From: Metasolibacillus sp.
GTDB lineage: Bacteria > Bacillota > Bacilli > Bacillales_A > Planococcaceae
Reading direction: 5' to 3'
NCBI RefSeq assembly: GCF_025291715.1
Contig: NZ_JAMBIZ010000022.1
Span: 1-59,534, forward strand
DNA length: 59,534 nt
The position numbers and the translations under genes are program-made. Below, one piece after another: positions 53,129 through 56,452 of this stretch (the first letter of the stretch is position 1; every line of letters starts with the position of its first letter). The notes beneath the pieces were generated by a model. It was not told the origin of the DNA. It did no database searches and saw nothing but the letters and a program-made list of their open reading frames with translations.

Positions 53129-53998
53129 TTAAGCTTTCACTTTATTTCCTACAGTTAATACGATAATTCCAGCAAAAATCAGCACAACACCTAGCCATGA
53201 TGTCCACGCTAAATATTCATTCAAGAAAAACGCACCGAGTAGTGCTGCTGTCAATGGCTCCGCTAAGCTTAACGTTACTGCCGCAGAGGATGGAACCGCC
53301 CGCAAGCCTGTTAAAAATAAAATATAGGCAATGCTTGTCGCTGCTATTCCCATATAGCCCATTGTCAATAGGTTTGTCGTTTCTCCTAGCCAGCTCCAGC
53401 CATCAGACCATGCAAGCGGTACTAAAAATAATGCGCTTAATGTAAAGGTCATGGCTACTGCAGGCAATGTCGCAGCATGCTCCGTCAAACGTTTGCTAAC
53501 ATTCGTATAAAACGCAAACATTATGCCACCACATAGTGCAAGCAGCACCCCAAAGCCATTGACTGTCGTATCACCACCAATTGCAAAAAGCAACACACAG
53601 CCAACAATAGCAAAGCTTGTAGAAATTGCCCAAACACGTGTCGGCTTAACCTTCCAAAGAAGCCATTCAATAATGCCTGCAAAAACTGGGGCACTGCCAA
53701 TTGTTACAACCGTTCCAATGGCCACACCAGTATAGCGTATAGAAGAAAAAAACAAGCATTGGAAAAGTGCAATGGATAGCGCCGCCAGTAAATTCCATTT
53801 CCAAGGCCATGTTTTCCATTGAATGCTCCTTGCTAAAAGTGCAAAAATTAATAACGTACCGCCACCAATAGCTGAGCGCACACATGCGACCGCAAATGGT
53901 GAAATATTCCCCTGTAAAAATGTTTGTGTTGTTCCTGTCGTTCCCCATAAAACAGCAGCAAGTAGCACTGCGATATATGGTAATAGATTCATTTTCAT
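53129..53998 (-). CDS. EamA/DMT family transporter
   Basis: A 289-residue membrane protein with ten predicted helices in two EamA halves. VLLAAVLWGTTGTTQTF opens the first half, and the AVTLSLAEPLTAALLGAFFLNE segment is near the C-terminus. Family members export amino acids, nucleotide derivatives or other small metabolites. ACGGAGG lies before the ATG. It is the last gene behind the ECF sigma factor, anti-sigma and mini-ORF, with no terminator between, so it is probably part of that regulon. Confidence 0.86.
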   Translation of the reverse strand: MKMNLLPYIAVLLAAVLWGTTGTTQTFLQGNISPFAVACVRSAIGGGTLLIFALLARSIQWKTWPWKWNLLAALSIALFQCLFFSSIRYTGVAIGTVVTIGSAPVFAGIIEWLLWKVKPTRVWAISTSFAIVGCVLLFAIGGDTTVNGFGVLLALCGGIMFAFYTNVSKRLTEHAATLPAVAMTFTLSALFLVPLAWSDGWSWLGETTNLLTMGYMGIAATSIAYILFLTGLRAVPSSAAVTLSLAEPLTAALLGAFFLNEYLAWTSWLGVVLIFAGIIVLTVGNKVKA

Positions 53999-54024: not shown

Positions 54025-54075
54025 TTAGCGAAGGTTTACTGGTACATCCTGTTCAAATAATGGCTTCCAAAGCAT
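54025..54075 (-). CDS. 16-codon mini-ORF in the sigma operon
   Basis: ATG at 54075 lies about seven bases after AGAGGAGG, one of the best ribosome sites in the window. The site touches the stop codon of the putative anti-sigma gene. The frame encodes MLWKPLFEQDVPVNLR and then stops. EamA starts 26 bases later. It may be a real micro-protein or a coupling/leader peptide for EamA. No relative is known to me. Confidence 0.45.
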   Translation of the reverse strand: MLWKPLFEQDVPVNLR

Positions 54076-54089
54076 TAAAATTCCTCCTC

Positions 54090-55340
54090 TCACTTCATTG
54101 ATGCTTCCTCTAAGGAGTGTAAATAATAATAAGGCGTTGACCTTTCCGTATATAGCTCTTGATACTGGATATCAAAAACCTCTCCACCTACCATACGCAC
54201 TGCTAATAGCTCTTTCAGCAATAAAGGCATATCCATTGCATCTAAAATATTAATTTGCTTTAATGTCCCGTCTTGAACAAAGGCAATATTTGCATGAGCT
54301 CCATCAAAAGTATATAAAGGCTCCTCTGTCAAATTTGTTTGAAAAGAAGCTGGACCATTCGTTTTGCTCAACTGCCCTTTGACAGATTGGAAATTATCGA
54401 TATGCTCATTATAGTATATTAATTCGTAGTCTACATCTTTTAAAGAATCTCCTATTGGTTCATTCATTACATGAATTGTGTTCATTCTTTCTACAATAGA
54501 ATATTGTGTTTGTGGATCGTCTCTGAAAGAAGTAATTTCATAGTAGTCCCCATCTTTTTCAAGTATTAAAAATATTCCGCTATATCCAATCGTATTATTG
54601 CCTTGTTCAATCATGCGCTTTTTCATAAAATGAACAATTACATTGCTATTATTTAGCTTTTGTGGTGATGGCACATTGCTAGCTACAGGCTGATAGTCAT
54701 CAATTTGAACAATTTGCGCTGTTGGAGCATCCTCGGGTGTTAGCTGCAACGCCTTTGGTGCTTCAAACTGTTCAAAAACGAGCCAATCCTCATATATATC
54801 TTCCAGTACTTTAAAGTCATTTGATCCCCATCTACCAACCTTTAAAGTATGAATATATATTTCTCCATCTGTTACATCCTTGTGCGCTATATAAATTTGA
54901 TACAAATTACCTGCGTCCAGTGACTGTACTTTAATCATTTTTAATGTTGTGAAATCAACGTTTTCATATTTTAAAATTATTTCTTTATTTGATGCGGTGA
55001 CATCAGTTAATGAAACTTGCCCCAGTGCCGCATAATCCTGTTGTGCAATTGCCTGCAAATAAGCCTTGAGTGCTTCAGTAGCTAGCTTTGGTAACCCTTC
55101 TGCGAATCGCTCTATATTTAACTCATTTGCTGGATGTATCGGCTCGCTCGTAGGTGGCAGCAAATAAATGATAAAGGCTAGGCAGGCGATAGCAACAACT
55201 GCAAAAATAGGCTGAATGATTGGTATTAAACGGCGTTTTTTTGGTTTCCTGAGCATTTTTTGTACTTTTTCCTCTGTCAGCCAACGCTCCTCACCAATTA
55301 CTGCATCAATTCCTTTTTTAATTTGTGAATCGCTCATCAT
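54090..55340 (-). CDS. Putative membrane anti-sigma factor
   Basis: A 416-residue protein with a short cytoplasmic N-terminus (about 38 residues, including RKPKKRR), one membrane helix (about 40-61) and a long external domain. Its start overlaps the sigma factor gene by 23 bases, the standard arrangement for a cognate anti-sigma. No zinc HxxxCxxC motif is seen, so it is not a ZAS-type factor. The external domain (YLQAIAQQDYAALGQ...) has no close named relative that I recognise and would be the sensor. Assignment rests on context and topology. Confidence 0.68.
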   Translation of the reverse strand: MMSDSQIKKGIDAVIGEERWLTEEKVQKMLRKPKKRRLIPIIQPIFAVVAIACLAFIIYLLPPTSEPIHPANELNIERFAEGLPKLATEALKAYLQAIAQQDYAALGQVSLTDVTASNKEIILKYENVDFTTLKMIKVQSLDAGNLYQIYIAHKDVTDGEIYIHTLKVGRWGSNDFKVLEDIYEDWLVFEQFEAPKALQLTPEDAPTAQIVQIDDYQPVASNVPSPQKLNNSNVIVHFMKKRMIEQGNNTIGYSGIFLILEKDGDYYEITSFRDDPQTQYSIVERMNTIHVMNEPIGDSLKDVDYELIYYNEHIDNFQSVKGQLSKTNGPASFQTNLTEEPLYTFDGAHANIAFVQDGTLKQINILDAMDMPLLLKELLAVRMVGGEVFDIQYQELYTERSTPYYYLHSLEEASMK

Positions 55341-55833
55341 ATCCGCTCCCCTCTAAATTATATTTGAGCTTTTCTCGCCCTCTACGTAGCCGTGTTTTCA
55401 CCGTGTTAATAGAGCAATTTAAAATTTCCGCAATCGTTTCAACTTTCATATCCTTGTAATAATAAAGCACGATGACTTCGCGATATTTAATTGGTAATGC
55501 AAGTACCGCATGACCAATTTGTTGCTGTTCATTATTGCGTAGCATCTGCTTTTCTGCAGAGCTCTCTCCTTGAAAAATCGTCTGAATTTTCATTGTCAGC
55601 ACGGTGTTTTTGTAGCTCCAGCTTCGTAAATAATCGTAGCTGCGATTAATTGTCATGCGATATAAATAAGTTCGATAGCTCGCAGCACCGCGAAAATCCT
55701 GCTGCTTTTCAAATGCTTTTAGTAGCACATCCTGTACAATATCCTCTGCTATTTCCTTGCTTTTGACATATGTAAAGGCGAGCCGCAGCAGCTCCTCACC
55801 ATGCTCACGAATAAATTGCTCTAGCTGTGACAA
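55318..55833 (-). CDS. ECF-family RNA polymerase sigma factor
   Basis: A 171-residue ECF sigma factor. Region 2 has EIAEDIVQDVLLKAFEK (about residues 27-43), and region 4 has LPIKYREVIVLYYYKDMKVE with the helix-turn-helix AEILNCSINTVKTRLRRGREKL (about 135-156). The start is TTG, seven bases after AAAGGGGGG; no ATG in the right frame is close. It is of the SigV/SigW/SigX/YlaC general type. An ECF-type promoter lies upstream, so it probably activates its own gene. Confidence 0.92.
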   Translation of the reverse strand: MSQLEQFIREHGEELLRLAFTYVKSKEIAEDIVQDVLLKAFEKQQDFRGAASYRTYLYRMTINRSYDYLRSWSYKNTVLTMKIQTIFQGESSAEKQMLRNNEQQQIGHAVLALPIKYREVIVLYYYKDMKVETIAEILNCSINTVKTRLRRGREKLKYNLEGSGYDERFTN

Positions 55834-55861
55834 CGGCCATCCCCCCTTTGTTGTTTCACGT

Positions 55862-55890
55862 TAGACGGAGCACTTGTTCATTTGGTTTCA
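55862..55890 (-). promoter_or_regulatory. ECF-type promoter of the sigma operon
   Basis: On the minus strand TGAAAC (55890-55885), a 17-base spacer and CGTCTA (55867-55862). This agrees with the TGAAAC-N16/17-CGT form of extracytoplasmic-function sigma promoters in Bacilli. The -35 is one half of the palindrome at 55885-55900. Confidence 0.75.
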
Positions 55891-55894
55891 AATT

Positions 55895-55920
55895 TGAAAC
55901 TATATGTTATTTTAAACGTA
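55895..55920 (+). promoter_or_regulatory. ECF-type promoter of the C39-like gene
   Basis: TGAAAC (55895-55900), a 16-base spacer and CGTA (55917-55920), the exact spacing of SigW-type promoters. The -10 runs into TATAAT at 55919, so a sigma-A promoter cannot be excluded. It faces the promoter of the sigma operon. Confidence 0.72.
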
Positions 55921-55942
55921 TAATAACCGAGGAGTGATGACA

Positions 55943-56452
55943 ATGCGCATAATGCTAAATAATATAGAAGGAATGTCACAATACGATACAAGCGTTCATC
56001 CCAACTATCAAAACTCCGCATGTGGACCAACAACGCTGCATGTCATTTTGCGCTATTTTAATATAGACAAAAATGTCAATGACTTATATAAACAGCTCGG
56101 CACAACGAAAATTGGCTTGTTTAAATGGCGCTTAATCAAAAGGCTTCGCCATATGCTAGGCAGTCATTTTACAATTAACAGCTGCTCACTTGCTGAAGCT
56201 TTAGCACAATTGGACCGTGGCAATCCCGTTGCACTCAAATTTGACCAATATTTCCGCTTTCAATGGCGCTCAAAAAAGAAGCCTTTATTTAAATATCATT
56301 GGGTTCCGTTAATTGGCTATGAGCGCAAAGATGGGGAGCTTTATTTCATTATTCACGATAATGGTGGACGAGGGCGGAGCAGTCAAATACGTACATTTCG
56401 CTATGAGGATCAAAAGCATGTACTTAGCTTTGTGAAGGTTGAGAAAAAGTAA
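55943..56452 (+). CDS. C39-like cysteine peptidase family protein
   Basis: A protein of 169 residues with the peptidase_C39-like layout. NSACGPTTLHVIL carries the catalytic cysteine (about residue 26), YHWVPLIGYE the histidine (about 119), and IIHDNGG the third residue (about 136). No signal peptide or transporter domain is present, so it is a stand-alone cytoplasmic enzyme or inhibitor. I chose the ATG at 55943, eight bases after GAGGAG. Divergent from the ECF sigma gene, with facing ECF-type promoters. Substrate unknown. Confidence 0.82.
   Translation: MRIMLNNIEGMSQYDTSVHPNYQNSACGPTTLHVILRYFNIDKNVNDLYKQLGTTKIGLFKWRLIKRLRHMLGSHFTINSCSLAEALAQLDRGNPVALKFDQYFRFQWRSKKKPLFKYHWVPLIGYERKDGELYFIIHDNGGRGRSSQIRTFRYEDQKHVLSFVKVEKK

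Follow-up and report, generated by a model that had tools for sequence, protein, structure and literature searches.

ECF sigma factors share several hallmarks, namely an AAC in the -35 and a CGT in the -10 element of their promoters, a co-transcribed anti-sigma factor and autoregulation, as outlined in passages of PMC8103513. The autoregulated ECF operons of the Bacillales (SigV, SigM, SigX and SigW types) consist of a sigma gene overlapped by a second gene, which encodes a putative membrane protein, behind a TGAAAC/CGTC promoter; the Metasolibacillus locus described here is built in the same way, but its putative anti-sigma factor has no credible Pfam family and its sigma factor scores under the model cut-offs. 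For the promoter of the divergent peptidase gene, the nearest described system is the SigW regulon of Bacillus subtilis, with which the genus shares the TGAAAC-N16-CGTA motif, an orthologous SigW with the same self-promoter and several regulon families behind the motif; unlike here, no C39-like peptidase is named in the portions of PMC3498285 consulted, where the sigma-W operons include ydbST, xpaC-yaaN, sppA, yqeZ and yknW. The SigB general-stress promoters, with the consensus GTTTAA-N15-GGGTAT (given in part of PMC9847131), form a third point of comparison, their motif being found on sister-genus orthologues of the peptidase gene and absent in Metasolibacillus. Finally, pseudo-symmetric DNA that loads polymerase in two orientations is described for the bidirectional promoters of E. 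coli (sections of PMC12825309); there, the symmetry resides in a shared -10, whereas here it resides in abutting -35 elements probably served by two alternative sigma factors, and the definition used in those sections leaves out separate divergent promoters. A narrow keyword search of one open-access library returned no report of back-to-back ECF promoters; PMC9304148, from the available part of its text, concerns CarH operators.

The window, i.e., the whole stretch of 59,534 nucleotides that was analysed (contig NZ_JAMBIZ010000022.1), belongs to a Metasolibacillus genome of 3.83 Mb and contains the following features:

53129..53998, minus strand: EamA/DMT-family transporter whose gene ends the putative sigma operon (EamA, E=1.2e-41)
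54025..54075, minus strand: 16-codon ORF MLWKPLFEQDVPVNLR with a ribosome-binding site, in 5/5 Metasolibacillus genomes
54090..55340, minus strand: putative membrane anti-sigma factor of 416 aa whose gene overlaps that of the sigma factor at the latter's end (proposed from position and layout)
55318..55833, minus strand: ECF sigma factor, 171 aa, TTG start (Sigma70_r2 and Sigma70_r4_2)
55859..55867, minus strand: -10 region CGTCTAACG of the leftward promoter, invariant in 22/22 loci
55885..55890, minus strand: -35 TGAAAC of the leftward promoter, with N17 spacing in 22/22 divergent sigma loci
55885..55900, no strand: 16-bp palindrome GTTTCAAATTTGAAAC made of the two abutting -35 elements, flanking hexamers invariant in 5/5 Metasolibacillus, inner bases variable
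55895..55900, plus strand: -35 TGAAAC of the rightward promoter, in 5/5 Metasolibacillus, 0/16 genomes of genus g14 and 0/1 of genus g16
55917..55926, plus strand: -10 region CGTATAATAA of the rightward promoter, CGTA of SigW type with a sigma-A-like TATAAT inside
55929..55934, plus strand: GAGGAG, predicted ribosome-binding site of the peptidase gene
55943..56452, plus strand: C39-like papain-fold cysteine peptidase, 169 aa (Peptidase_C39_2, E=2.2e-11)

The sigma factor has the group IV ECF layout, with regions 2 and 4 only (Sigma70_r2 at residues 8-71 and Sigma70_r4_2 at 104-156 of the 171); among NCBIfam models, its best match is PRK09415, and it falls below the cut-offs of the SigV, SigW, SigM, SigZ and PRK09415 models. 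The genome gives 39 Sigma70_r2 matches, seemingly a large sigma set for 3.8 Mb. The putative anti-sigma factor matches no Pfam family at a credible E-value and no known anti-sigma domain. Its structural model (pLDDT 73.9, 7 sequences) comprises a short N-terminal part of low confidence, a helix at 42-60 and a large β-rich C-terminal part, and a fold search against the PDB gave TM-scores of at most 0.18 among the 50 matches listed; a scan of named genomes returned one locus, in Metasolibacillus meyeri, on the same contig as G036. Among nine sister-genus loci, the putative anti-sigma factor is 24-31% identical in seven, with no match in G100 and G113, and the sigma factor is 67-72% identical in all nine. 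The putative anti-sigma factor evolves much faster than its sigma factor, as if its outer part tracked a changing signal. Across the family, the peptidase is detected in 148 of 151 genomes and the anti-sigma factor in 14 of 151 (E<=1e-10), the latter count being low partly because of this fast divergence.

Downstream, the original prediction of a four-gene set is borne out in the window (sigma factor, putative anti-sigma factor, 16-codon ORF and EamA transporter), but its last two members were not found outside the genus in the loci and genomes searched. The transporter gene adjoins the operon in the window and in the four other Metasolibacillus loci, and lies beside it in none of the nine sister-genus loci examined. 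The small ORF (16-17 codons, M(L/F)WKPLFEQDVP(V/A)NLR) lies between the anti-sigma and transporter genes in all five Metasolibacillus genomes; its exact core motif was found in five of the 151 family genomes, these being the Metasolibacillus ones, and in none of the other 146. It has a good ribosome-binding site and is present even where the sigma gene is broken (genomes G018 and G065, below), where the transporter gene is likewise kept despite the deletions; it might encode a leader peptide or a small protein particular to the genus.

The peptidase shows an invariant C27, H119 and D139 in 30 of 30 sequences, which would make up its catalytic set. Its AlphaFold2 model (pLDDT 90.3) adopts a papain-like C39 fold, and the best PDB matches of the model are a putative C39-like peptidase followed by the peptidase domains of peptide exporters; the domain scan found no transporter domain fused to it. 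The sole profile match of the peptidase in PDB sequences, a de novo barrel at E=0.00087, was taken as chance.

Both promoter motifs were confirmed in the sequence. The leftward one, TGAAAC-N17-CGTCTA, lies on the minus strand (TGAAAC at 55890-55885, CGTCTA at 55867-55862) and occurs once in the window against none in 60 dinucleotide shuffles; the rightward one, TGAAAC-N16-CGTA, lies on the plus strand (TGAAAC at 55895-55900, CGTA at 55917-55920, continuing as CGTATAATAA) and occurs once against 0.07. A conserved pairing of the sigma, anti-sigma and peptidase genes had been proposed as something to look for in relatives, and for sigma and peptidase it does exist: in 20 genomes, an unbroken sigma orthologue of at least 67% identity is divergent from the peptidase gene, and two further genomes (G018 and G065) hold it as a remnant in the same position, giving 22 loci in three genera.

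In these loci, TGAAAC-N17-CGTCTAACG precedes the sigma gene in 22 of the 22. Genome-wide, TGAAAC-N17-CGTCTA has three sites in the window's genome (reversed control, 0), all three just upstream of ECF sigma genes belonging to this subfamily, and 14 sites in the five genomes of the genus (reversed control, 1); 12 of these 14 were looked at, 10 of them standing before intact subfamily sigma genes and two before broken remnants. The upstream regions of 20 other subfamily members, including two already counted in the window's genome, contain an exact TGAAAC-N17-CGTC in 10 cases and CGTCTA in 19, and TGAAAC-N16-CGTA in none. Judged from these sequences, the exact motif is largely confined in this genus to such sigma genes. 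Autoregulation of the sigma operon from the leftward promoter, as originally proposed, is thus well supported by genome comparison. A third TGAAAC (55854-55859, minus strand) follows directly after the leftward -10 in 5/5 Metasolibacillus and 0/17 sister loci.

The rightward promoter has a much narrower distribution. For 90 of the 148 genomes in which a peptidase match was found, the region upstream of the gene was read, and TGAAAC-N16-CGTA stands before the gene in all five Metasolibacillus genomes, in none of the 17 sister genomes that share the divergent arrangement and in none of the 68 remaining regions, about 190 bp before the start codon being searched in each case; among these 90 regions, the SigW-type promoter of the peptidase gene is specific to one genus. 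Within the genus, its invariant positions comprise six of six in the -35, four of four in the CGTA and eight of 16 in the spacer, and TAATAA follows the CGTA in four of the five genomes. In G052, the promoter is located about 100 bp from the peptidase start codon, compared with 22 in the window. Rightward and leftward promoters differ in both spacing and -10 (N16-CGTA vs N17-CGTC). Discrimination at the -10 between the SigW and SigX factors of B. subtilis was reportedly addressed by Qiu and Helmann in 2001.

The class that the rightward promoter resembles is well represented in the genus. SigW is present in all five genomes (TIGR02948 above cut-off); sigW itself has a TGAAAC-N16-CGTATA promoter at the three loci that were read, the same layout as the rightward promoter, and in the other two genomes a TGAAAC-N16-CGTA site lies, by coordinates, about 40 bp before sigW. 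The window's genome contains 38 TGAAAC-N16-CGTA sites vs 10 for the reversed control, and the rightward form (N16, CGTATAA) is that of its SigW-type sites. Twenty of the 38 were chosen by eye as likely promoters; by a mechanical rule, applied with no random-site control, each is followed within 18-218 nt by an ORF that has a ribosome-binding-like site, and this range includes the 22 nt from the rightward CGTA to the peptidase start codon. Ten of the 20 downstream proteins were scanned and belong to the bPH_2, TelA, S49 (SppA type), NfeD, Yip1, FxsA, EcsC, DUF456, DUF1232 and ArsC families, the last read as Spx-like; the first five of these we take to match B. subtilis sigma-W operon genes. One of the ten unscanned ORFs (L162) resembles a transposase. 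A matrix of 21 SigW-type sites (the 20 chosen ones and sigW's own promoter), biased to T-rich spacers because the 20 were picked by eye as likely promoters, gives the five rightward promoters 15.3-22.3 bits, compared with 12.6-28.9 for the class itself by leave-one-out scoring; all five lie inside the class range and below its median of 24.1, and they lack the usual T run after TGAAAC. Of the 16 unchosen sites other than those of the peptidase and sigW, 14 were scored, and the spacer scores of 12 of these 14 fall below all five rightward promoters.

Two natural losses of the sigma gene bear on the relation between the promoters. In G018, a genome of the window's species (locus L141), sigma residues 1-31 are fused in frame to the C-terminus of the anti-sigma factor; in G065 (L142), the sigma reading can be followed to about residue 39, and stops interrupt what remains of the anti-sigma gene. 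The two deletions have different breakpoints; both remove most of the sigma gene together with the N-terminal membrane-spanning part of the anti-sigma factor. The peptidase gene is nevertheless unbroken in both (95 and 85% identical), and TGAAAC-N16-CGTA is intact; the peptidase is retained without the sigma factor in two genomes. These losses do not prove the independence of the peptidase, because the leftward promoter is likewise intact in both; they may be recent, or a paralogous sigma factor may read the promoter.

On this evidence, the locus probably consists of two independent ECF promoters, the leftward one autoregulatory and the rightward one driven mainly by SigW, with a palindrome that is not an operator. 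The membrane anti-sigma factor would release the local sigma factor, which would then transcribe its own operon from TGAAAC-N17-CGTCTAACG, while the SigW orthologue, encoded elsewhere in the genome, would read TGAAAC-N16-CGTATAAT and place the peptidase in an envelope-stress response. Under such stress, the peptidase may act on peptides that are damaged or antimicrobial. The 39 Sigma70_r2 matches make other ECF sigma factors possible readers of the rightward promoter as well.

The original prediction had a single ECF sigma factor switching on both its own operon and the peptidase, through recognition of both -35/-10 pairs. Its autoregulatory half is supported by the comparison; the peptidase half has been demoted to a weaker reading and not rejected outright, and we regard it as unlikely, though the most serious of the competing explanations. 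The two -35 elements are identical, sigma and peptidase genes are divergent neighbours throughout the 22 loci of three genera, and the ECF regulons of B. subtilis overlap (according to part of PMC3498285), so that the local sigma factor could also read CGTA. However, all 22 sigma promoters are of the N17-CGTC type, none of the 17 sister genomes has the N16-CGTA counterpart within the region searched, and the rightward promoter survives in the two genomes without the sigma factor. Moreover, for an ECF sigma factor of Thermoanaerobacter, every base of CGTC, also the fourth, is reported to matter for binding and transcription (part of PMC3397946).

In the sister genomes with the same gene pair, a SigB-like GGGTAT or GGGTAA is found in 12 of 17; lying 38-44 bp before the peptidase start, it occurs in 11 of 16 g14 genomes, the single g16 genome and two of three in genus g19, for a chance frequency of 0.11 per 100 bp in shuffles. 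With the looser GGGWAW at 35-46 bp, the count is 14 of 20 g14, g16 and g19 genomes vs 2 of 65 regions of other genera (11 of these 65 when GGGWAW is allowed anywhere in 100 bp), and AGGTAT is found in two further g14 genomes, G119 and G125. The sister GGGTAT matches the -10 of the SigB consensus; a -35-like match at allowed spacing, by a criterion that is loose in such T-rich DNA, accompanies it in 9 of 16 g14, 0 of 1 g16 and 1 of 3 g19 genomes. Of the 20 g14, g16 and g19 genomes read, 18 gave a match to SigB. Its presence explains the motif only partly: G032 lacks both SigB and GGGWAW, but G015 has GGGTAT without SigB, and G073, G100, G119, G125 and G019 have SigB without GGGWAW. All five Metasolibacillus genomes encode SigB; in none of them does GGGWAW occur in the 100 bp before the peptidase gene, and SigB was rejected as the present driver of the peptidase in this genus. 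The peptidase tree (30 sequences, five genera) separates four genera from genus g11 at 0.85 support and places Metasolibacillus (g1) weakly, its grouping with g19 having a support of 0.61. These patterns are most simply read as the exchange of a SigB-like promoter for a SigW-like one in the Metasolibacillus lineage.

The housekeeping factor sigma-A might also drive the peptidase, with or without ECF input, from TTGAAA-N19-TATAAT, since CGTATAAT contains a sigma-A -10; TATAAT is found inside CGTATAATAA in four of the five genomes and TTGAAA in all five. G073 and G032, sister genomes with no GGGWAW in the peptidase promoter, have TGTGTATACT or TGTGTATAAT there, presumably an extended sigma-A -10. 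A spacer of 19 bp is unfavourable for sigma-A, however, and G018 reads CGTATATT, in which CGTA is kept and TATAAT is not; we consider this explanation decidedly doubtful.

The palindrome itself is as predicted: the letters and coordinates of the perfect 16-bp GTTTCAAATTTGAAAC at 55885-55900 are correct, and its halves are the two divergent TGAAAC elements. As a palindrome alone, it is not significant because the window holds three perfect palindromes of at least 16 bp vs a mean of 1.6 in the 60 shuffles; both promoter motifs are far rarer by chance in the shuffled window. The bases between GTTTCA and TGAAAC are AATT in the window's genome (G000) and in G065, AAAT in G018, AACT in G036 and AATTT in G052. 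A perfect 16-bp dyad between divergent genes would suit an operator bound by a dimer, either repressor or activator, that covers both promoters, but dyads of this length are expected by chance, this one is perfect in two of the five genomes of the genus, its half-sites are 4 bp apart in four genomes and 5 bp in G052, and the 17 sister loci keep the sigma-side TGAAAC while none has the peptidase-side TGAAAC-N16-CGTA, for which reasons an operator was rejected as highly improbable. The palindrome looks like a by-product of two TGAAAC boxes abutting at 4-5 bp, rather than one shared switch.

Competition between the promoters, as raised in the original prediction, is plausible from their geometry. 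The starts of the two -35 boxes are separated by 10 bp (11 in G052), roughly one helical turn, which places the boxes on one face, and two polymerases probably exclude each other for this reason; at E. coli promoters with a shared -10, competition is shown only at high activity (in the relevant part of PMC12825309). It is conceivable, though we think it rather improbable, that the abutting boxes form an either/or switch, in which the released local sigma factor would shut off the SigW-driven peptidase and vice versa, and which would have been built by the replacement of the SigB-like peptidase promoter. The locus is a small natural example in which the -35 boxes of two alternative-sigma promoters abut, and in which a gene seems to have moved from one stress regulon to another while the promoter of its neighbour stayed fixed; the existence of natural strains without the sigma gene makes ECF sigma crosstalk and competition testable at a single site.
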